Shown: positions 20,069-39,289 of the stretch, one piece after another
How positions within the stretch are numbered: position 1 is the stretch's first letter
Layout of the letters: every line of letters starts with the position of its first letter
From: Acarospora socialis
Lineage: Eukaryota; Ascomycota; Lecanoromycetes; Acarosporales; Acarosporaceae
DNA: 64,000 nucleotides
NCBI GenBank assembly: GCA_025617375.2
Contig: JAMYGW020000001.1
Span: 186,001 to 250,000 of the forward strand
Direction: 5' to 3'
The notes under the pieces: model-generated
Told to the model about the DNA's origin: nothing
The model's input: the letters and a program-made list of their open reading frames with translations, nothing else
Database searches by the model: none
Translations under genes and position numbers: made by a program

Positions 20069-23000
20069 CTAAGTCGAGGACAAGAACTTCAACACACCCT
20101 CCCTCTCCTCGACCGGCAACATACTCAGGACCTGCTGGACGCCCTTCAGCGCGCCCTCCTTATGATTGCCGCGCATAAGCGCCGCCACATCGAACGCGAC
20201 GGCCTCAGCCTTCAACACCTCCACCTTGGCATTGACCACCTTCCTATTCTCCTCATACCACGTCGCCGCGGCCTTATCGTCGGTGTCGAAGCCCGCGACG
20301 CCCGACCACGCGCGGAGCAACTCGATCTTGTGCTCGCGGGTCGTGGGCCCGCGAGGAGAGGAAGAGGGGGAGGAGTTGGCCATCTTCTTGAGGATGGACT
20401 CTTCGTTGAGGCGGCGGCGGAGACGCCAGTAGAAGAAGCGGCGGGCTTCGCGCCAGCGCAGGGCTTGACGGATAGTGCCTTTGGCTTTCATGCGGCCGGC
20501 GCGGTCGTGCAGGTCGGCGAATTGGAGAGCGATTTGGGAGTAGACGGGGAGCAGTAGGGATTCGCGCTCCGTCATTTGTACTTTGATGTCGGATTGTTGG
20601 TCTTTGCTGAGGGATTTGTCGGCCAATTTCGCCTTCAGCTCGGCGTAGGTCGGGTCGAGGCGGGCCATGGTGTCGAGTTGTTTGTCGCGCCGGTATTTGA
20701 TGTTGACGATACCCTCGGGTTCGAGGACACCACCTCGGCCGTCTTCGTCGGCGTACATTTCCATGAACTCGGGGTTGATGGTGGGATCGACGACAACCTG
20801 AGGTCGGTTAGTACCAAAGTTTGGTGTGCATCTTTCGAGTGTGACTTACCCATGAACCGCCACGCAGTTCACCAAAAGGTGGAATATAGATAAACACAGG
20901 TTGCTCGTATTTGACAAGAGCATCAACAATGTAGGAGCCGTATTTCAGCACCTCGTTGAACATGTCTCGTTGACCACCTGAGAAACCTCTCCAGTTGGCC
21001 AGGATCATCAACGGGAGCTGCTCGCCGTTATTGAAGTCTTGGATAGCCTGGGCAGTCTTGAAAGCGGAGTTCGGGTACCAAACACCACCAGCTTCGTTGC
21101 TAATTTGCTCCATCGAGTCGGGATTCGCTGGGTCAGCAGGCATGACGTTCTCCACAGACCGAGTTTCGACGCCGATCACTCCAATAGGGATACCACCGAG
21201 TCGAGCACGTCCGACGACAACTGTCTTGGCCCAACCGCCTAGTGACTCCTGGAAAGAGTCCTTGTCGAACATCCCATGTAGAAATCCTTCCTCGTCTTCC
21301 TTACCTGCAATCAACCACCGCACGTCGTAGGCTTGTTTCGGCGGTGGATAATATTCGATCTCGCGATCCCAAGTGTCTGCCGACACATGAATGGGTACCG
21401 GGCTATTTTTCTTATCAGGTACGAACGACATCCAATCCACAATCTTCGACACTCCCTCAAAGTCGTCATTCGCCGTCATGTGGGACACGCCGTTCTTGTA
21501 CATGATCTGGGTGCCACCAAGCTGCAAGTTGGAAGTATACACTTCTCGGCCCAACAGTTTGTTAATGGCAGGTGCGCCGGTGAGAATGATCGGTTGGCCT
21601 TCGATCTGAATGGCACGCTGCCCGAGACGGACAAGATAAGCGCCAATACCTAAGTAGTGTCAGCTTACAAGGTATTCGCAGAAGGCTTTGAGTGAAGGTG
21701 CACTTACCGACAGATCGACAAGTCACCAAGGTAATGGTAAAGATGTCCTCATAAGCTTTTGAAGTTGCTCCGGCAATAAGCCCGGAGCCCCGGAGGCATT
21801 CGACACCAAGACCATCCTCAGCACCGATGACAGTAGTTATCTTATGTCGAACTTCTCCATTCTCCGTAATCGGTTCAGTAATCACATCTCTTGTTTTTCC
21901 ATCCTCAAAGCGCTTTTTCACCTCAGGTGTGAGATACAAGTACTTGAAGCCCGCTTCTGGCTTGTCTGGATCGTTCCAAGCAGCGGAGAAGTGCGGTATA
22001 AGTTCCTCTGCCATACCGATACGAGCACCAGAGTTAGCGGAGAGATAGATCCGGGGGATACCTAGTTTTCTTGCGAGCTCGGTGCACTTGAAGAAGAACT
22101 TGTCTTCAGTCGGGCCAAACGATCCGATCTTGAAGGTGATGTCGTTGGCGACGATAATGAAACGTCTCCCGCGAGGATATTCCGGCGTCCTTGCCGTGAC
22201 TATCCAACCGACCATACCGTGTGTATTCGTCCCAGGCTCTCGAGATACCTCGGCGAGATTGTCGGTATCGTCGAGCACCAGTTCACTGTATTCCATGCAC
22301 TCGTGCGTCGGAGGCTGTTTGTCGGCCAGGACGGTATGCTTTGATATGGCCTTGGCCCAGCTGTTTTGGAATGCTTGTTTGAACAGATCGGGGAAGTCAT
22401 ACACGTACTGGGTGCCCATCAGATGGGCCTTATACCGTTTCGGTTGTAGCCACTCCTTGGTCGGATAAGGCGTTGAGACGGGTCGCAAGTGCATGGCACC
22501 GATCCTTGTCGTACCACCAATGCTCTGGAAAATCCATTCGCCGCCCTTGTCTGACTTTCTCTCGGCGTACATCTCAACCTGGATGACATAACCAGAGGTG
22601 TTGGTGACGACGACTCGAAGAGGATAAGGCATGCCCGTGGTTGGTTCGGTACAGATGATACGAATCTCAGCACCAGTGACTCGCAGTCTCCACGCTCGTC
22701 TCCCAAAGCGGTCCAAGAAGCCCGCCAGCGCCTCTTCAACCTCTTCAGGTTTCAGTGGGAAAACGGGCGAGAAGTTGATGAAGATATGGTTCAGGTCAGA
22801 ATTGTTGTTGCCGATGATCTCAAGTGCGTCCAGAATGTCGTTCATCAATCTATCAGCCTCTGATATCAGATACTCGGCGGTTGGGATCTCGTCTCGCAAT
22901 CTGCCTGGACGAACCACAGCACGAGTGAAGTATCTCTTGTCGACTGCTTTGTCGCTCTCTGATCCTTTCCCAATAGCCTCGTACACGTGGATATTCCTAT

Positions 23001-26000
23001 TTTCTGTGAAAACAGGCTTGATACGGAATTTGGACAGTCGGCCAAGTTCCAGTTGGAAAGCCAAAGCAGGTTCCGTGTGTCGAATGCTGTCATCCTCCTC
23101 GTACTCAGGTCCTCTGAACGTAAAGTAGCCGGGATATGTGCCATCTTTATGTCCGCAGATGAAAGTCAGTCTCCTCACCCGCCTTGCCAGAAGTTCATCC
23201 TTGTACTCCTCAACTATACGCGAAATACGTGCAATAGTCTCATTGTCCTCTAGGCTTTCGGCGTCCCGGATAGCCACGTTACAAACAGCAGTAAGCTCAT
23301 CTTCGTTATCCAGCTTTGGTAAGGGAACCTTGCGCCTCCCTCCCAGGTCCGCCAACAGCCCATTGCTGGGCCGCTTCTTTTTTGACCCAGCAGTTGGGAA
23401 GACTTCTAAGGCTCGCATCAGATACTCCTCGGCTTCATCCAGGTACTGTACTGGAACGATGACACCCTTCCGCGTTGGCTCATCAATGCCGACACCTTTG
23501 TTGATCAAATATGACATATCACTAATAGAACTGATCTTCTTGAAAGGGTTGCCTTCAGTTGTCGGCGTTCCTGGAGTAGAAGGGTATGCTGATTGTATCG
23601 GTAAGCCAAACTCAGAGTGTCCGACTTTTCGAAGACGAAAGTCCCAAGAAAGAATAAAGGGTGGCTCGTTTTCGTTATGGTATTCGAGCTTCTTCACGTC
23701 GTAGGCGCGGTAAGCTCTCCTGATGTAGACCTCCAGGGCAGCCAGTGATACCCAGGGATCTTGGTGACCGAAGAAAAGTGGCAATACATCGAAGACGGTA
23801 TACTTCGAGTCTACCACCTCTTTCAATATCTCAAAGTTTGGTTCCCTATGATCCCAGCCAGTCTCTCCATACCTTGACTCGACAACTGATGATCGAAGGA
23901 TGTGCTCCATTTGTGCTGCACGCTCCTCTAAAGAGGGCAATGCGCATTGGATGAGAACTTCGCGGGCCTTCAATGCCACCTTTGCGGTAGATCTTCCTTC
24001 AAGCTCTGCCAATCGTCTTAGAGCCGGACGGAAGTACTTGGCAACGGGTCCAACATTCGGCTTGTTAGGTCTGTACATCTCCAAGATTGCGATTATTAGG
24101 TTGTTTTTCGCACCTATCCTGCTGTGAGAAAGCACAATCTGAACGACTTTGAAGATATCATCCTTGTGCTCCTCTCTCAGTTTTAGGATGACATCTTCGT
24201 CACGCGAGTTGCGAACAGAAAAAAGCTTCTCGACGTTGAAGTACTGATCTAACAGCTTGGTAAAGACGTCGAGTTCGTGGGCCTTCAATCCTTCAATGTA
24301 GCGGTCGATGACGGCTGTCAAGGGACTAAGCGCTGAGCGGAGCAAGTCCGCATCACTTGGCTTAACATTATCTTCCAAGAAGCGCGCCATAGTCTTCGAC
24401 AGCTGCTTTGCCGGAAACTCAACCTTTCTGGCCCTTGCCCGCTCCACAATTTGCGTAAACTGAGCGTCCAGCTTTTGGGGCATGCGTGCATGAAGGGCGG
24501 AAAACTGTGCGTTCCATTCGCCGTACGGTAGGTCCGAATCCCGGAGCACCTGCGCAAGCTCGTTGAGCGTAGATGCCATGATGACTTGATTGTCGAAGCC
24601 CTGCAAGATGTTTTCCAAGATGCTGTGGAGAAGAGCGAAACGCTGAGGCGGTTTGTTCCCCACAACTTGCGGTGGTCCCAAGTCAGGTAGCTGGCCGAGG
24701 AAAGGTTGTGCATGCTTCACCCTGGACGGGTCATCCAGAGCTAAAATGCCCAGGATATCCCCAGCTTCGAGCGTAGCTCCTGGCTGCTTGATGAGTTGCA
24801 CGATACCGTCTTCCTGTGTAATAAGTGGCATGTACATCTTCATAACTTCCACTTCAGCGAACGCTTGGCCTGCTTTAACGTGCTCGCCGTTTTCGACTGT
24901 GAACTTGACAAGTTTGCCGGGGCTTGGCGTTCGGAGCTGAGTCGGGTCGTTTTCTTGCTCAAGTAAGCAGGTCTTGCTGTCGACACTCATGCGAGTAGCT
25001 CCGACTTCTTCTTTCCAGTAGACATTATGACTCCGTCCGTTGAGAAGAATGAGAAGACCCCCATCGGCGAGCGCTCTGACACCCACCGCACATTTTGACC
25101 CATTGATGAAAAGATGGTAGCTGTCGAGACTCGATCTGGTAGCGGTGAATTTATATCGGTTTCCCTCGTAGATGAAGTCAATTGGAAACACCGTCTTGAG
25201 CATGTCTTTCGCGGGCACTTGACCCTTCTCCAAATTCGCTCTGTATTCAGCAATGCACCCCTCGCTAGCAGTGTGCGCCTTGGTCACGGCACCGCATACG
25301 ACAGCAAGCATTGGATCTGGTCGTTCCGCTGTCAACTTGTTGGATATCAGCTCGTCTAGCCAGCCAGTTGTGATTGTGTTCTCCTCGAATGCGGGCGTCT
25401 CCAGTAACTTGATGAGGTATTCGACAGTGGTTCGGAAGTCGCCACGAATACTCAACTCCTTCAGCGCGACGACCATATGCTTCCGCGAAGCAGATCGGTT
25501 CTCACCATATGCAAAGATATGGCCGAACTGACTGTCGGAGAAGCTGTGGATGCCTCCGGCGGTACCGACGGAAAAGTATCCCCACACATTGGAGCTACTT
25601 CGGAAATTCAACTCGTGCATCATGCCGCTTGAAGGCTTGAAACCCTCTCCGGGATCTTCTGAGGTGATACGGCAGGCGGTGGTGTGACCTTTCGGCGTGG
25701 GTCGCCTCTGGCTCTTGACGCTATCTTCTTTGGAAAAGTCGAAGTCGATCTCAGACGAGGTCTGCGGATCGGTGCCGTAAAGAATTCGGATGTCCTTGAT
25801 ACGGTGCAACGGAATACCCATCGCAACCTGTAATTGTGCCGCCGGCAAGTTCACACCACTGACCATTTCCGTGGTGGGATGTTCCACTTGCAATCGGGGA
25901 TTCAGTTCCAAGAAGTAGAACTTATCCTCTGCGTGCGAGTAGAGATACTCTACGGTCCCCGCCGAGACGTACCCAACTAATCTCCCTAGTCTGACCGCAG

Positions 26001-27281
26001 CTTTCTCCATCGCCTGGAATGTTGCTGGTTTCGCGATCGTAACTGGAGCTTCTTCAATGATCTTCTGATGTCTTCGTTGTACCGAGCAGTCTCTGCCGAA
26101 GAGAGAGATGTTGTTCCCATACTGGTCCGCCAGAAGCTGTACCTCCAGATGTCTTGCGTTTCCAGCAAGTTTCATTATAAATATGGGCGAACCTGGTACT
26201 TCGCTTGCTGCGGCGTTGTATAAGCTTGTGAAGTTCTCTTCAGTTTCGACTTTCCGAATGCCTTTGCCTCCACCTCCTTCCGAAGCCTTTACCATGACCG
26301 GGAAGCCAATTTTGCGTGCCGCCTCAAGGCCTTCCTCAGGCGAGTGTGTGCAGCCTTTGTCGTAGACATCATCGTCGACTGCGACGATGCCGTTCTCGTC
26401 GATCCGTACTTGGTCCACTCCTTCCCCGGACCAAGGTATACAAGGTACTTTCGCATGCTGAGCCACAATCGTAGAGGATATCTTGTCACCCAAAGATCGC
26501 ATCGCTGAGCCTGGTGGTCCGATGAATATAATCTTCTTTGGCGAAGCTGCCAAGGACTCGGGCAGTTTAGGGTTCTCCGAAGCATGGCCCCTTTAAGACT
26601 ATAAGCCAACCGCCACAACGTGATTGAGAAGGTATACACTTACCATCCAGCCCACACCGCGTGTACTCCCATCCGCTCCGCAACGTCGACAATCAACTCG
26701 ACGTTGGCGTAATTGTTATTATTAGTTCCCCCAGGGACCTGTACCAGGGATGATTAGCACTCAAGATTCTTATCACATTGAGTCTTCTCTTTGCAGAGCC
26801 AGCTCAATTATTCGTCAAGCGCGCAGGTCCAGTAATTGGGAGGGTTCAGCTCACTTCAACATACTGATCCGCCATCCGGATGTAGTCCGCATTAGCCTGC
26901 AGGTCTTCCGGGGTGGCCATGACCGTAAACTGTATTGCCCGCTCATCGCCAAAGGTCTCGTAGGCCCATTTCCGGACCGACCGGATTTCCTTGACGGCAG
27001 CGATTCCATTGTTTGCGATCAAGACCTACACAACAGATGTCAATCATATACTCCACACCAACTACTTGGATCAGCGGGGTGAGTCTGACCGATGTAATGA
27101 CAGTATGTCCATCATTGTTGGCGACAAAGTCTTTGACTCGACTTGGCGGAGCGACCTCGAGGTGGTTGCCGCCTATGAAGTGAGAGGGGAGGTTATGTTT
27201 TGCGGCGTATGAGCTTCCGTGGCCGTTGACGACCGGCACGGTGATGCCGTTCGTGTGAGGCTCGCCGTTTGTCTCGGCCAT
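20069..27281 (-). CDS. ACC1: Acetyl-CoA carboxylase (multidomain, biotin-dependent)
   Basis: Six exons: 27281-27090, 27025-26855, 26738-26644, 26590-21708, 21649-20850 and 20797-20069, giving 2289 residues, the normal fungal size. All splices keep frame and rebuild [20 protein letters not shown] and [17 protein letters not shown], then [13 protein letters not shown]. Order: biotin carboxylase (about 60-570, ATP-grasp loop [14 protein letters not shown]), biotin carrier with the EVMKM site (Lys737), long central region, carboxyltransferase (about 1500-2200, with [13 protein letters not shown] and [10 protein letters not shown]). It makes malonyl-CoA for fatty acid synthesis, elongation and polyketides, in the cytosol. 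The ATG at 27281 gives the usual cytosolic N-terminus, but the same frame stays open for 70 codons upstream and encodes a basic, mitochondrial-type leader (reported separately). Confidence 0.98.
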
Positions 27282-31763: not shown

Positions 31764-34615
31764 TTAATCAGCATACCCGACATCCCTATGCACCGTCTTA
31801 CCATCGCCTTCAAAGGACGGCGTGTCATATGTACCCTCCGGATCTAATCAATATCAGCCTACGGTTTCTACCCTTCAAATGATACAACCCGATGAGATGA
31901 TGTGAACATACCTTTACTAGTCTTCATTATATACTCCTGTGTCTTCACAATCTTGTGCCTCAACCCACTTAGGAGCTCATGCATATCCAATCGCACCCTC
32001 TCATTCTTTTGCGCGCCGCCCTTTATGGCTGCCTCCGCAACATGATACCTGCTTACATGGTTCCTTAGCATCATATCGAACGGCGTCGTCGTACTGCCTT
32101 CCTCGCGGTAACTCTCGATACTAACGCGCTGCAAGTTCGGACGCCCGAACAAGAGACCTTTGATTTCGTTTGCGTAGCCATGGTAGTTGAAGTGAATGGG
32201 CCGGTCGGGTGTGAAGAGGGCATCGAAGTCGGCGTGGTTAAGGGCGTGCGGATGGCTGCCTTCGAGACCGAGGATCATGAGATCAGTAACGTTGACGACG
32301 CGGACGCGAAGCTGCGGCACTAGTTTGCGCAGCATGGATGCAGCTTCAATCACTTCAAAGGTAAGTTCTGCTCCGATACTCACCAGAACAACGTCCGGGT
32401 CTAGACCTTCGTCAGTGCTGGCGAATTTCCAAACAGAGCCGCCGGCGCGGCAGTGCGATTCTGCTTCGGAGGCAGTGAGGAAAACCGGTTGAGGCTGTTT
32501 GGAGCCGACCATTAGGTTGACGTAATTCTTGGAGCGGAGGCAGTGAGCCGTGGTGGAAAGGAAGGTGTTTGCGTCCGGGGGAAAATAAACGCGGGCTGCA
32601 TCCGGTTTGAGATTGAGGACGGCGCCGATGAAGGAGGGGTTCTGGTGGGAAAAGCCGTTGTGTTCTTGTCTGGTCCAGGTACTGGTTTCGAGGTAATTGA
32701 TGCTGCTGATATCTTTCCTCCAGTTGGTCTCTCGTGCCTGAGCATACGGAGTTAACGAAATGCGTTTGAGAATGATCTCCTGGGTGTACGACTTACCATT
32801 TTGTTAAATTTGCTGTACTGAACCATCATGGTATGAACAATGCCAAGGAAACTCTCATAAGAGGGAAATAGCCCGGTTCTTCCGGTCAAAGTGTAGCCTT
32901 GAAGGAAGCCTTCGCAGGTATGTTCGGAAAGAATCTCAATGACTCGCCCCCCTTTGGCATTGGAAAATTGATCCCACTGAAAATCGCGTCCGGTATGTCG
33001 CAGGACCGCATCGAGCTTGTTACTGACCAACTCATCGGGCGAGAAGATCCTTATGCTCTTCGGGTTCTTCACTAAGATTTCGTCAAGAAGCTCGCCGATT
33101 GTTGCCATGCAGCTTGCTTGGTCGCCCTTTTTGACGCTGAACTTTTTCCAATCCGGTATCTCGAGTATCTCACGAGTGCAGCAAGTGTCAATGGTCTGTC
33201 CGATTTTCCGCGTGTCATCCTTCGGAACAATATATGTGACCGCCTCAGTAGGGCCACCTTCTTTGGTGAAGAGTTCGTGCGGCTTATAGCTTCCTAGCCA
33301 CTCCTGCAGCTGTTTGAGTTCCTCATCATCCGACTTGGCTGCCATTAGCGGGACTTGATGTGCATGAAATGAACCCTCCACGAATTCGCCCTTGACCTTT
33401 TTCGGACCACCCCAGCCCTGTACACTGAGTCAGCACAAAGGACCTTGGGATGATCTGTGTGGCTCACCTTGGGAGTCCGCAGGATCAGTACTGGCCATCT
33501 CGGTTTCATGATTGGCTTACCGGACCGTGCTGCCTTTTGGATTTTCCGAATCTCATCCAGAGCCCACTCCATAGAAACACTAACGTCGGCGTCAATATCC
33601 CCCAAGTCTTCAACGAAGCGTGGCTGGTATCCGTAACCAGTGAACAAAGCGGCCATCTCCTTGTCGTCCATGCATCCATAAATGGTCCTCTCGCTAATCT
33701 TGAAGCCGTTGACGTGTACAATTGGGATGACAGCGCCGGATTCCGCAGGATCAATATACTTGTAACCGTGCCATGCTCTTCTGCAGTCAGTGACAGACTC
33801 TTCATCAGAGATAGGTGTCTTACGTGGCGGTAGGCCCGGTTTCAGCCTCTCCATCTCCTACAATACACGCTACGATGAGGTCCGGCTTGTCCATAACAGC
33901 CCCGAAAGCTACCGACAAGGCGTACCCAAGCTCCCCACCTTCATGGATGGCGCCAGGAGTCTCTGCGTTGATGTGGCTGCTTGTTATCAGTGATCGTGAT
34001 CTTAGACGTCGATCAACGCTTTCTGCTTACCTAGGAAGTCCGCTTGGTGTACTGAATCTTGTGATCAGGTTGTGGAGTCCAGTTCTAGTCCTTCCGTACT
34101 CTGGATAAACCTTTTCGAGAGATCCCTCGATCCATAAAGATGCGAGGATTGCCGGCGCACCATGGCCAGGGCCGACCACGTAAAGCAGGTTTAGATCGTG
34201 CTTTGTGACAAGCAAGTTAAGGTGCGAATATACAAGCGTCAGGCCGGGACAAGTACCCCAGTGTCCTGTAATCGCATCAGTTATGTGGCCTGCGGGAGCG
34301 CAGGTAGACGGATCAATTACCTAGCAATCGAGGCTTAATGTCATCGAAGGTCAAATCTCGCTCCAAGTAGACATTGTCGTGCAGAAAGATCATAGCTTAT
34401 AACGGACAGGTCAGCACACAACATTAGTCTCAGAGACGGACAGGTTCCATACCAGCTGTGACATAATTTGCAGCGCGCCTGAAAAGCTGCAATCCAGAGT
34501 ATGTATCCTCATCCAGCTTGGTCTTCTCGAGCTTAACAGCCAACGACAACACATCATCTGGTACATTTGAGGGAATCGGCTGCGGATTCGGACGGTCAAT
34601 GACTTCTCCAGGCAT
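31764..34615 (-). CDS. xfp: D-xylulose 5-phosphate/fructose 6-phosphate phosphoketolase
   Basis: Eight exons: 34615-34453, 34395-34321, 34265-34031, 33976-33824, 33777-33468, 33417-32797, 32737-31912 and 31843-31764, giving 820 residues, the normal size. Splicing restores [36 protein letters not shown], the thiamine diphosphate motif [19 protein letters not shown], and [20 protein letters not shown] with [12 protein letters not shown]. The fifth exon's AAG acceptor is preferred because the CAG three bases upstream would insert an Arg in the conserved TATAWH. The enzyme splits xylulose 5-phosphate (or fructose 6-phosphate) with phosphate into acetyl phosphate and an aldose phosphate. Its start faces the acetate kinase gene 662 bases away, which uses acetyl phosphate. 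The family is best known in bacteria but is spread among filamentous ascomycetes. Confidence 0.97.
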
Positions 34616-35277
34616 CTTGAAAGTGTTCGGATTTCATCAGCACTGTGTGCGGACAGGATGATTAAAAGGAGTTGCCAACGGCGGTCTCGTCGACTCGTCC
34701 TAGATTAACCTCACTTCCGGGGTTAGTTTACTGGTAAGGGTGCGGTGAACAATCTCTCGAGGCACGTTATGAACATGAAGAGCTTCTAGCTTCTTGGACA
34801 ACACTGACGGAACACTCGGATGTGCAAGGATGTGTACAGTAACGTGCAGGACCTCGCTGGCCAAATAGAGTAAGATGCTTGGACCTCAGTTGAGATCAAT
34901 TACAAAATTCGTGCAAGCTGCTGCGGTTACTTTGCCCTAGGCTACACGAATTGCGGGCATCTGAATCCTACACGCCGTGTGGTATTCGCACCGAGACTGT
35001 TTGCTATTGTTCAATATCGAAAAGCGATTACAACGGACTGACATCACGTACAAATAACTTACAGTAGGTGGGCGGTTGAGATTCCCAAAGCTTGATCCTT
35101 GTTAGTTGCTTGGCGTTAAAGCTTATCGTTATCGATAGACGGAGCTCGGCAACGTTCACAGACAATAGGGCAGCATTTACGTACACAGTAGGTTATTATT
35201 GATGTCAGGTGAATTATCACCGTTGCAAGGTCGTGTCCTCTACGTTCAAGAGAGAACTTCTCCTACCAACTCAGACC
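34616..35277. promoter_or_regulatory. Shared divergent promoter, phosphoketolase / acetate kinase
   Basis: The 662 bases between the two start codons serve two genes of consecutive reactions, so co-regulation is likely. I see short palindromes such as TTATCGTTATCGATA near 35120, but cannot assign a factor. Confidence 0.55.
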
Positions 35278-36679
35278 ATGCCAAAGATTATTCTATCTAT
35301 CAACGCAGGCTCCTCGTCTGTCAAAATATCGGTCTATAGTGCAGAGCTAAAAGGGCAAGCTCCAAAACAGCTTGCTGAGGCGCAAATAGCAGGATTGACG
35401 GCTCCCCCAGCGACCCTGACTTACGAGCGTGGATCCGAGAAGATCAAAGGACAAGAAGTTAACGGTATCAACGGGCAACAAGATGCCTTCAACTACATTC
35501 TAGACCACTTGGTGAACGACAATGCGCTTCCAGAAATACAGAACAGGGAGAATATTACCCATGCATGTCATCGGGTTGTGCACGGCGGCGACTTCCCTGA
35601 AGCTCATGTGATAGACTCGGACACGTACCATCACCTAGAAGAGTTAACGGACTTGGCTCCGTTGCACAACGCCAGCGCTTTAGCCATTGTCGAAGCGTGC
35701 AGCAAAGAACTACCCAAAGCCAAGAACATTGCCTATTTTGACTCTGCATTCCATGCCACCATCCCCGAAGCAATCCGCACCTATCCTATCGACCAAAAGG
35801 TTGCAAAGAAGAACAAGCTGAGGAAATATGGCTTCCACGGCATCAGCTATGCCTTTATCACAAGATCGGTAGCCGAGTTCCTCAAGAAAGACGTGGACGA
35901 AACCAGCATCATTGCTCTGCACCTGGGCAGCGGTGCCTCGGCTTGTGCCATCAAGAATGGAAAGTCATTAGATACCAGCATGGGTTTGACTCCACTGGCT
36001 GGACTACCCGGCGCCACTCGTAGTGGGAGTGTTGACCCAAGGTATACTGCTTGATGTCGATTGGGATCTGAAACTGATCTTACACAGTTTGATATTTCAT
36101 TTCACTCATGATGCCGGTAAACTCAGTCCCAGCAGCACCAAAGAACTGCATATCAGCACTGTAAGTATAGGTGGCCCAACTCATGGACCACGCCGGCTGA
36201 ACCAGGAATGAAGGCAGAGGATATTCTGAACAAGAAGTCCGGGTGGAAAGCAATGACTGGCACGACAGACTTTGGGAAGGTGTCTTCATCCTCCGACCCC
36301 CAGTGCAAGCTCGCGTTCGACATCTTCATCGACCGTATCTTAGGCTTCGTAGGGAGCTACTATGTCCAGTTGGAAGGCCGTGTTGATGCGCTGGTATTCG
36401 CAGGAGGAATAGGCGAGAAGGGTGCGATGTTGAGGACTCGAGTTGTTGAGAAATGTCGGTGCTTGGGTTTTGAGATTGATGAAGAAAAGAATAAAAATAG
36501 TATAAATGATGTTGTCGTCGACCTAGGGAAGGAGGGTGCGAAACACCGTACGCTGGTCTGTAAGACGGATGAGCAGGTAAACTCGTCGCCATGACCCATC
36601 ACCACGTGTCAGTACTGATATTTCTTGCCAGTTCGAAATGGCAAGAGGATGTGCAGCAAATGATAAACTCTTCGACTAA
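35278..36679 (+). CDS. ack: Acetate kinase
   Basis: Four exons: 35278-36041, 36088-36160, 36214-36576 and 36632-36679, giving 415 residues, as expected. The start is MPKIILSINAGSSSVKISVY; an in-frame codon further upstream is not family-like. Signature blocks: CHRVVHGGDFPE, AYFDSAFHATIPEA, KYGFHGISYAF, HLGSGASACAIKNGKSLDTS, GLPGATRSGSVDP, VFAGGIGEKGAMLRTRVV. Catalytic Asn, Arg and His positions of the ASKHA kinase fold are present. The second intron must end at AAG (36213) to keep frame; an alternative would break it. The enzyme turns acetyl phosphate and ADP into acetate and ATP. Paired with phosphoketolase it completes a bypass from pentose phosphates to acetate. Location is presumably cytosolic, as no leader is seen. 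Confidence 0.96.
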
Positions 36680-37237: not shown

Positions 37238-39289
37238 ATGGCATATGTCTATAACAGCCAGCTTGTTGGTATCCTGCAGAGATCCTAAGGTACATCAGAG
37301 AAGGCTGACCACATCTAGGACGCCTTTTCCATCTATCACAAATTGCAAGAATCTCCATCCCCGCCAAGCTCAATTCTCAATGGTCCTGCTCTCCCAGCTC
37401 TAGGACACGCTCTTGCCGGATCAACCGGTGCAGCTATCTCAAACATCTGCACCTATCCTCTCGATCTCATAATCACACGCCTTCAAATACAACGCCAGTT
37501 ACGCAAGAATGCATCATCGCCTCATGAAGGAGAATACAAAGATATCAGCGATGCTGCCGGAAAGATCTACACTCAAGAGGGTGGCTTCTCTGGCTTTTAC
37601 ACGGGAGTGGTGGAAGATACGGGGAAGACGATAGCAGACTCCTTCCTCTTCTTCCTTGCGTACAATTTCCTTCGCCAAAACCGCCAACGCGCGCATGGTA
37701 CTCCTTCGAGAGGCTTGCCTGTACTGGATGAGCTTAGCGTAGGTATCTTGGCTGGGGCTTTTGCAAAACTCATTACGACGCCGATTGCGAACATCGTTAC
37801 GCGCAAACAGACCTCTGCTCTTGTCTCTTCCCGTACCAGTTCAGGCTCACAATCCAAGCCGACGGTGAGAAGTATTGCGTCTCAGATACGCTCGGAGAAA
37901 GGCCTTCAAGGGTTCTGGAGCGGTTATAGTGCGAGTTTCATACTAACCCTTAATCCGAGTTTGACTTTCTTCTTCTATGAGACGTTCAAACGCACTCTAC
38001 TCCCGAGATCGAAGCGTGATGACCCAGGTGCGCTGGCAACATTCTTCCTCGCAGCAATGAGCAAGGCTATGGCATCGACAATCACTTATCCTTTCTCTCT
38101 CGCCAAGGCTAGAGCGCAAGCTTCTTCCAAAGTCGTCGAGGACAACGACGAGGAGGTCAAAGAGGGATTGGAGAAGGCTACATCGGGAGAAATCAGCGGG
38201 ACCAGACGAACACGCAAAGCAGCACGGACGACAGTCTTCTCTACGATTCTACATATCGCCAGGACGGAAGGCGTAGGAGCATTGTACGAAGGGCTGAGTG
38301 GTGAAGTGTTGAAAGGGTTCTTTTCGCACGGCATCACAATGCTCGTCAAAGATGCTATTCACAAATTGATCATCCGATTATACTACACCGTTTTGAAGAT
38401 GATGAAGAGATATCCGAGTCCGCAAGAGCTGGCGCAGCAGGCGAAGGAGCGTGCCGAGACCGTGATTGGGAGTACCTCCGATCAGGCATCACAAGCAGCA
38501 AAGACAGTCAGCAACGGCACGCAAAGCGTGATGGAGAAGGGACAGGAGGTGGCTCAGACCAGATCAGCACGAGCGCATTCTCTCTACCAGGCCGGCAAAG
38601 ATCAAGCTTCTAGCTTGGTCGACGCTACGAAAACGAAAGCGGACGATGCAGGGAAGTATACGTCCAATGCAGCAAGTAGTGCTTACGAGGCGGGCAAAGA
38701 CACCAGCACCGGAGCATATGACAAGAGCAAAGACGCCGCCAGCAATGTGTACGATAAAGCGCAAGGCACAGCAACAGGCGCATACGACACGACCAGATCC
38801 ACGGCCAGCGACGCGTACGATGCTAGCAAATCCACAGCCAACAATGCCATTGACAACACTAAAGACGCAAGCGCCGCAGCCTACAACAAGAGCAAAGATA
38901 CTGCCAGCAGTGCTTACGGTGCAAGCAAATCCGTAACCAATACCGCCCTCGATACCACAAAGGACACAACTGCCGCAGCCTACAGTAAGACCAAGGACAC
39001 AGCCAACAGCGCCTACGACGCCAGCAAATCAACAACCGACAACGCTCTCGACAAAGCGAAAGACACCGCTACCGGCGCATACGATACCAGCAAATCCACC
39101 GCCAACAGCGCCATCGACAAGACGAAATCCACAAGCAGCTCCGCATACGACGCCACGAAATCAACAACAAACAACACCCTCTCCACCGCAGCCGACACGA
39201 AAGACAGCCTTGCCGAATACGTCGGTAAGAAGACGGAGAATATGGGCAGGAGGATTCGACCTAGTGTCGAGGATGCGGGGGAGGAATAG
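37238..39289 (+). CDS. Peroxisomal-type solute carrier fused to a long 11-residue repeat (LEA/perilipin-like) tail
   Basis: The start is an ATG at 37238 in a perfect GCCGCCATGGC context; exon 1 (37238-37268) joins exon 2 (37350-39289) across an 81-base intron ending in AAG, giving 656 residues. No in-frame ATG exists otherwise before the carrier domain. Residues about 20-370 form three carrier repeats (YPLDLIITRLQIQRQL, TPIANIVTRKQTS, YPFSLAKARAQASSK with PX-D/S-type motifs) like the Ant1/PMP47 peroxisomal adenine-nucleotide carriers. Residues 438-624 are 17 gapless 11-mers of the type KDTASSAYGAS and KSTANSAIDKT. Typical relatives end soon after the third repeat, so the tail is an extension. 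Its Thr/Ala-rich, Lys/Asp-balanced 11-mers resemble LEA group 3, alpha-synuclein and perilipin-4 amphipathic helices. Substrate and membrane are inferred; the tail's role is unknown. Confidence 0.88.
38630..39190 (+). repeat. Coding minisatellite, 33-base period (17 units)
   Basis: This DNA encodes 17 consecutive 11-residue units without a gap. Units alternate between an AYD form and an AID/ALD form, giving a 22-residue (66-base) super-period over much of the tract. Units are diverged at the DNA level, with synonymous changes, so the tract is not a recent slippage product. Confidence 0.88.

Follow-up and report, generated by a model that had tools for sequence, protein, structure and literature searches.

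A single gene in the window, the 64,000-nucleotide stretch of DNA analysed here, encodes an SLC25-type carrier whose reading frame runs on without a stop into about 275 residues of amphipathic sequence with the periodicity of an 11/3 helix. The carrier probably belongs to the peroxisomal Ant1/PMP47 clade, and the closest match to its tail in the same genome is a repeat expansion within an Hsp12-family gene. We propose, with a probability of about 0.45, that the tail is a carrier-anchored helix of the Hsp12 and perilipin-4 kind that would fold onto the cytosolic surface of its own organelle as a stabilising coat. To our knowledge, the long 11/3 helices known so far (perilipin 4, alpha-synuclein and LEA proteins, with Hsp12 similar) are free proteins, each left to locate its own membrane. 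In a natural fusion to a multi-pass organelle protein, the address of the helix would instead be set genetically, and one could test directly whether helices of this kind act on a membrane in cis, by protecting or coating it. We found no description of such a tailed carrier among the open-access papers listed by full-text searches, which is weak evidence of absence.

The protein has 665 residues under the predicted splicing, from an ATG at 37238 to a stop codon ending at 39289 (Table 1). Its one predicted intron was called on fungal splice signals, and a second in-frame choice, with the ATG at 37245 and the donor GTATCC, would alter only about the first nine residues. The original prediction placed carrier and tail in one exon and one frame, and so they lie: exon 2 is open from carrier to tail, no stop intervenes, and its only GTNNGT donors, at 37739 and 39221, are away from the carrier–tail junction. 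Moreover, the in-phase tail pattern begins at residue 383, about 20 residues past the end of the third Mito_carr match. A carrier alone would be complete, and the tail might then belong to a different message with the fusion being merely an open frame; given the unbroken frame, the donor-free junction and the short distance between the third match and the start of the tail phase, we regard two genes or transcripts as very improbable.

Table 1 Parts of the carrier–tail gene, in window positions
Feature	Position	Strand	Comment
Exon 1	37238..37264	+	9 codons; start codon context GCCGCCATGG; predicted donor GTTGGT
Intron	37265..37318	+	54 nt; GTTGGT...GCTGAC...TAG; predicted from the frame and fungal splice signals
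Exon 2	37319..39289	+	656 codons and stop; entire carrier and entire tail in a single open frame
Carrier repeat 1	37391..37681	+	PF00153 match
Carrier repeat 2	37715..38002	+	PF00153 match
Carrier repeat 3	38027..38374	+	PF00153 match; ends at residue 361
Tail, N-terminal flank	38438..38602	+	Residues 383–437; five in-phase 11-residue blocks, one with almost no moment
Tail, core	38603..39163	+	Residues 438–624; 17 gapless 11-mers, consensus TASSAYDATKD
Tail, C-terminal flank	39164..39262	+	Residues 625–657; three in-phase blocks

Membership of the SLC25 family is given by three Mito_carr (PF00153) stretches, which a Pfam search of the whole protein finds over residues 34–361 (E = 6.4e-44). The SLC25 signature, PX[DE]XX[KR] after each odd helix, is degenerate: read by eye, the three sites are PLDLII, PIANIV and PFSLAK, with the acidic residue present in one of three and the basic residue in one of three. 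Because both peroxisomal-type paralogs in the genome are degenerate too, this does not exclude an assignment based on the repeats. When the carrier was searched against the genome (31.1 Mb in 38 contigs; the gene sits on contig C1), the best other matches were C4:2059769 (E = 1.0e-15) and C2:3380511 (E = 3.3e-13), with the next at 5.1e-9. From their motifs, we take the first to be of the Ant1 type and the second of the PMP47 type. Both return the window gene as their best paralog, the Ant1-type query at 4.8e-32 (next gene 1.1e-12) and the PMP47-type query at 4.7e-23 (Ant1 type 3.0e-20, then 1.8e-16). The window gene is thus closer to these two, under names that rest on motifs, than to other carriers, although the reciprocal paralogy is good rather than conclusive because exon-by-exon scoring favours a single-exon gene. 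These scores agree with the Ant1/PMP47-type carrier named in the original prediction, and make the window gene a probable third member of the peroxisomal clade, divergent and closest to the Ant1 type.

Ant1/PMP47/SLC25A17 carriers share with the window gene the three repeats, the degenerate motifs and the mutual best-paralog relation, but the two members in this genome, about 342 residues (Ant1 type, last exon read by eye) and 325 residues (PMP47 type) when spliced, stop at the carrier and bear no 11-mer tail, as had been expected for carriers of this type. The Ant1-type paralog (C4:2059261–2060451, spliced by eye) has a short Ala/Lys-rich end after its final carrier helix, just where the long tail of the window gene starts. 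In this family the C-terminus of the carrier is expected to lie in the cytosol, and by family the carrier–tail protein would reside in the peroxisomal membrane. Debaryomyces Pmp47 with a C-terminal GFP is reported on peroxisomes (PMC10526880). AlphaFold2 without an alignment gave pLDDT values mostly below 50 for the carrier part, and this model was set aside. BcMtp1 of Botrytis, considered as a relative, was rejected, being described as a 327-residue YPR011C homolog (PMC9864816).

The original prediction of 17 gapless 11-mers is exact for residues 438–624, but the amphipathic phase extends beyond them to residues 383–657. Within the core, identity at lags 11, 22 and 33 is 0.36, 0.42 and 0.45, against a 500-shuffle maximum of 0.245 over lags 2–40. 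Lag 33 is the highest of the repeat lags, and perilipin 4 repeats are described as conserved in 33-mers (PMC5889406). The hydrophobic moment of the core peaks sharply at 98.2° (0.239), as that of an 11/3 helix would, and has fallen to 0.017 at 100°; the best values among shuffled sequences were 0.112 (1,000 shuffles at 98.2°) and 0.149 (300 shuffles at 80–120°). A peak about twice the best of 1,000 shuffles upholds the predicted amphipathic 11/3 helix of the lipid-surface type, and gapless 11-mers with a moment near 98.2° are what is found in exchangeable 11/3 helices, such as those of alpha-synuclein, perilipins and apolipoproteins. Both flanks keep the phase of the core, which is reached by 15 of 5,000 shuffles for residues 383–437 and by 2 of 5,000 for residues 625–657; carrier residues 300–372 are out of phase (4,102 of 5,000). 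The extended tail contains about 275 residues in about 25 blocks, a fair rather than an exact count because the moment nearly vanishes in block 416–426 (0.04) and the phase of the N-terminal blocks is displaced by up to about 50°, and would measure about 41 nm if helical. Residues 378–656 contain no proline.

The repeats are old rather than the product of a recent DNA expansion, since Tandem Repeats Finder reports no array in the tail DNA and the 11-mer units share on average only 53% of their nucleotides, with 41% of their residues. Comparison of all 136 pairs of the 17 units gives a pS of 0.69 and a pN of 0.41; units 3–17 give 0.67 and 0.36, and in these the first, second and third codon positions differ at rates of 0.37, 0.41 and 0.51. 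Ala fills position 5 in 15 of the 17 units, with all four of its codons in use, while codon choice is biased for Lys at position 10 (AAA in 12 of 14) and for Tyr at position 6 (TAC in 10 of 11). The protein pattern of the tail was kept while silent sites diverged, a contrast of moderate strength.

On the helical wheel, apolar residues occupy unit positions 5, 6 and 2 in 17, 16 and 11 of the 17 units. Lys or Arg stands on either side of the apolar centre, at +101° in 15 units and at −96° in 6, and Asp or Glu lies opposite the apolar face, at 166° in 13 units and at −161° in 7. The face is only mildly apolar because its exact centre, position 9, is Ser or Thr in 14 of 17 units; Thr at position 1 and Tyr each occur in 11 of 17. 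Given this centre and a mean hydrophobicity of about zero (−0.02), the tail may bind bilayers only very weakly. Its bulk values (hydrophobic fraction 0.33, charged 0.25, aromatic 0.064, net charge about 0) place it beside perilipin 4 (hydrophobic 0.35, charged 0.15, aromatic 0.002, moment 0.257) and below alpha-synuclein (hydrophobic 0.47, charged 0.24, moment 0.30), both from Table 1 of PMC5889406; the moments compare only roughly, as the published values come from HeliQuest and the value of about 0.24 for the tail from a script. We infer that the tail would fold upon contact with lipid.

Profile searches did not assign the tail to the families of such helices. Pfam on the carrier–tail protein finds no LEA_4, perilipin, synuclein or HSP9_HSP12 match above cut-off in the tail; at E ≤ 1, HSP9_HSP12 (PF04119) has no match in the tail and perilipin (PF03036) none in the whole protein, and a weak Apolipoprotein match of the tail reaches 12–15 bits against a cut-off of 90. 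A perilipin profile search found nothing in the genome and likewise nothing in 14 control genomes, and is hence uninformative. An 11-residue period and an amphipathic helix are common to the tail and LEA group 3 (LEA_4, PF02987), but membership of the tail in that group was rejected: neither Pfam on the protein nor PF02987 run over the genome matches the tail, its consensus agrees with the LEA3 11-mer motif at no more than 3 of 11 positions in any rotation, and its nearest relative here appears to be an Hsp12-family protein.

With the 187-residue core as query, the other match in the genome at E ≤ 1 is C2:1556005 (E = 4.5e-7; five candidates scored), which in turn finds the window at 1.6e-5. 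The gene at this locus begins with an Hsp12 domain (PF04119, 56.8 bits, one match among the candidates scored; E = 6.3e-12 against yeast Hsp12, PDB 2l9q), after which come 33-residue repeats (identity 0.69 at lag 33). It covers C2 ~1555820–1556700 on the minus strand and encodes about 209 residues, about twice the length of yeast Hsp12. Gene counts in this genome are lower bounds, the best candidates having been scored and read exon by exon. The core tail aligns with the 33-mer repeats without gaps over 124 residues at 35% identity, and the score of 195 was reached in none of 1,000 residue shuffles and in none of 1,000 column permutations (11 columns; highest score 187). What the two have in common is thus the arrangement of residues inside the unit, and not composition and period alone. 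Judged by these alignments, the 33-mer expansion of the Hsp12 gene is the best relative of the tail in this genome, and the likeness may reflect common descent or convergence under the same physical demand. Direct likeness to the solved Hsp12 is suggestive only: the score of 64 against yeast Hsp12 residues 1–93 is reached by 1 of 1,000 shuffles for residues 438–624 and by 3 of 1,000 for residues 383–657, and there was no match at E ≤ 1 in a phmmer search of the tail against solved structures, Hsp12 included, nor any in a two-row profile search against solved Hsp12.

The charge pattern points the same way. By the account in PMC6164224, Hsp12 combines two basic wings with an acidic centre, and perilipin 4 carries its positive charge on one side; the tail has basic wings, unequal at 15 versus 6 of 17 units, and an acidic centre, and is nearer Hsp12 than perilipin 4, with one wing stronger. 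The 11/3 period, the Ser/Thr/Ala/Lys/Asp composition and the register are likewise common to the tail and the Hsp12 family, including the member in this genome. Unlike the carrier–tail protein, Hsp12 proteins are free and without a membrane anchor (109 residues in yeast, 209 here), and their N-terminal signature is absent from the tail. Perilipin 4 resembles the tail in its gapless 11-mers, 33-residue super-period, weak moment and few bulky residues, but is a free, droplet-targeted protein of 968 residues, with one-sided positive charge and almost no aromatic residues, whereas the window tail has its Tyr residues and a carrier anchor.

We therefore favour a coat formed in cis. Borne on the presumably cytosolic C-terminus of a carrier from the SLC25 family, and probably from its Ant1/PMP47 clade, the weakly hydrophobic 11/3 region would be disordered in water, and the carrier would fix it to the membrane at a very high local concentration. 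It would then fold on the cytosolic leaflet of its own organelle with the Ala/Thr/Tyr face down, Lys at the rims and Asp outward, and adjacent tails could together make up a thin coat over the membrane and so stabilise it, chiefly during drying, heat or oxidative stress. A weak helix needs either length or local concentration, and a multi-pass anchor gives the second, which favours folding in cis. Hsp12 is reported to be disordered in water, to fold on membranes and to stabilise model membranes (PMC6164224); it is also described as breaking liposomes into small vesicles, and a similar tail could thus remodel the membrane instead of stabilising it. The similarly weak perilipin-4 helix is reported to bind neutral lipid, and bilayer liposomes only very weakly (PMC6164224), and its layer is described as very immobile, for which the authors suggest polar contacts between helices (PMC8064757). 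A peroxisomal setting is plausible, because stress proteins of another disordered family, the dehydrin-like proteins of Alternaria, associate with peroxisomes, as the same paper says of Aspergillus fumigatus (PMC3788798). Counting against the cis coat, the Hsp12-like similarity of so repetitive a tail may be convergence.

The tail could also act in trans, binding lipid droplets and tethering them to the carrier's organelle, where they would feed fatty acids to peroxisomal β-oxidation. Its moment and residue make-up are close to those of the perilipin-4 helix, which coats droplets in yeast as elsewhere, and its 187–275 residues exceed the >66 needed for perilipin 4, of which 132 residues already marked a fraction of the droplets in HeLa cells (PMC5889406); droplet specificity is attributed to length together with low hydrophobicity (PMC6164224), and Pmp47, a peroxisomal carrier of the same clade, is reported to serve β-oxidation (PMC10526880). 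However, an anchored tail would meet its own membrane first, and the 275 residues fall between the 132 of perilipin 4 that were largely cytosolic in yeast and the 396 that bound robustly (PMC5889406, PMC8064757). The two-winged charges, more like Hsp12 than one-sided perilipin 4, and the much higher aromatic fraction also speak against tethering, which we consider possible but less likely than the cis coat. A tail that is hydrophilic and mostly disordered could instead serve as a spacer or crowding brush, acting as a steric shield or on curvature or spacing with no insertion into lipid, and this would suit a mean hydrophobicity and a net charge near zero and 25% charged residues. A pure spacer has no need of a constant amphipathic phase over some 25 blocks, nor of a phase kept despite silent-site divergence (pS 0.67–0.69 versus pN 0.36–0.41), and we hold this reading to be doubtful, about as likely as tethering.

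Self-association of the tail into a long bundle of helices, whether in solution or from one carrier to the next (a scaffold or hairpin), would accord with the AlphaFold2 model of a 283-residue tail piece, in which two long helices are predicted with a break at 88–90 (mean pLDDT 77), and with the chemoreceptor bundles among the weak matches of a fold search. The model, made from a single sequence, says little more than that the tail has a propensity for helix, and low-complexity repeats are prone to helix over-prediction; none of the 253 fold matches at E ≤ 10 reached E ≤ 0.001, and an apolar face of Ala, Thr and Ser with one Tyr, Ile or Leu per 11 residues would make a poor coiled coil. Such a bundle is improbable. 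Least probable of all is that the helix binds ice in the manner of type I antifreeze proteins with their 11-residue Thr/Ala pattern, a reading suggested by Thr at position 1 and Ala at position 5 and by the winter flounder protein Maxi (4ke2) at rank 9 of the fold search. The Maxi match is not significant (E = 0.62), and the Ser/Thr at position 9 of the tail, where Maxi has Ala, its Tyr residues and its alternating charges are unlike Maxi.

The cis coat may have a parallel at another organelle. A reticulon gene at C2:2476068–2477462 (57.6 bits; one found among the candidates), reached through the LEA_4 search at E = 0.11, has about 200 C-terminal residues whose moment peaks at 98.7° (0.250; shuffle top 0.148), with a weakly LEA_4-like sequence and a 40-residue period. 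It is a second organelle-membrane protein in the genome with such a tail: as in the carrier–tail protein, about 200 residues of C-terminal 11/3 sequence follow an integral organelle-membrane protein, although the reticulon is an ER-shaping hairpin protein. The score between the two tails is reached by 3 of 1,000 residue shuffles and by 61 of 1,000 column permutations, which is not beyond composition and period, and a specific kinship between them was rejected; the parallel is a likeness of architecture only, because the sequences are not specifically related. A C-terminal amphipathic helix of reticulons is already described as needed for membrane bending (PMC8546617). As a query, the reticulon tail finds the Hsp12 gene only weakly, at E = 0.06, and not the window, and against yeast Hsp12 residues 1–93 it scores 78, reached by none of 1,000 shuffles. 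We tentatively suggest, as an idea that may well prove wrong, that in filamentous fungi 11/3 helices of the Hsp12 kind are attached to proteins resident in particular organelles, a carrier in the peroxisome and a reticulon in the ER, beside free Hsp12. If true, these would amount to a set of coats against membrane stress, each covalently anchored and specific to one organelle, and the fusion raises the question of whether peroxisomes and the ER have anchored stress shields of their own.

Genes in the window, which include NudE and Atg17, have short introns, and this gene content and intron size point to a filamentous ascomycete. Several in the neighbourhood of the carrier gene belong to acetyl-unit metabolism: phosphoketolase (XFP; 31868–32803, minus strand) lies near acetate kinase (35203–36054, plus strand) just upstream of it, and acetyl-CoA carboxylase (21562–26592, minus strand) about 11 kb upstream.
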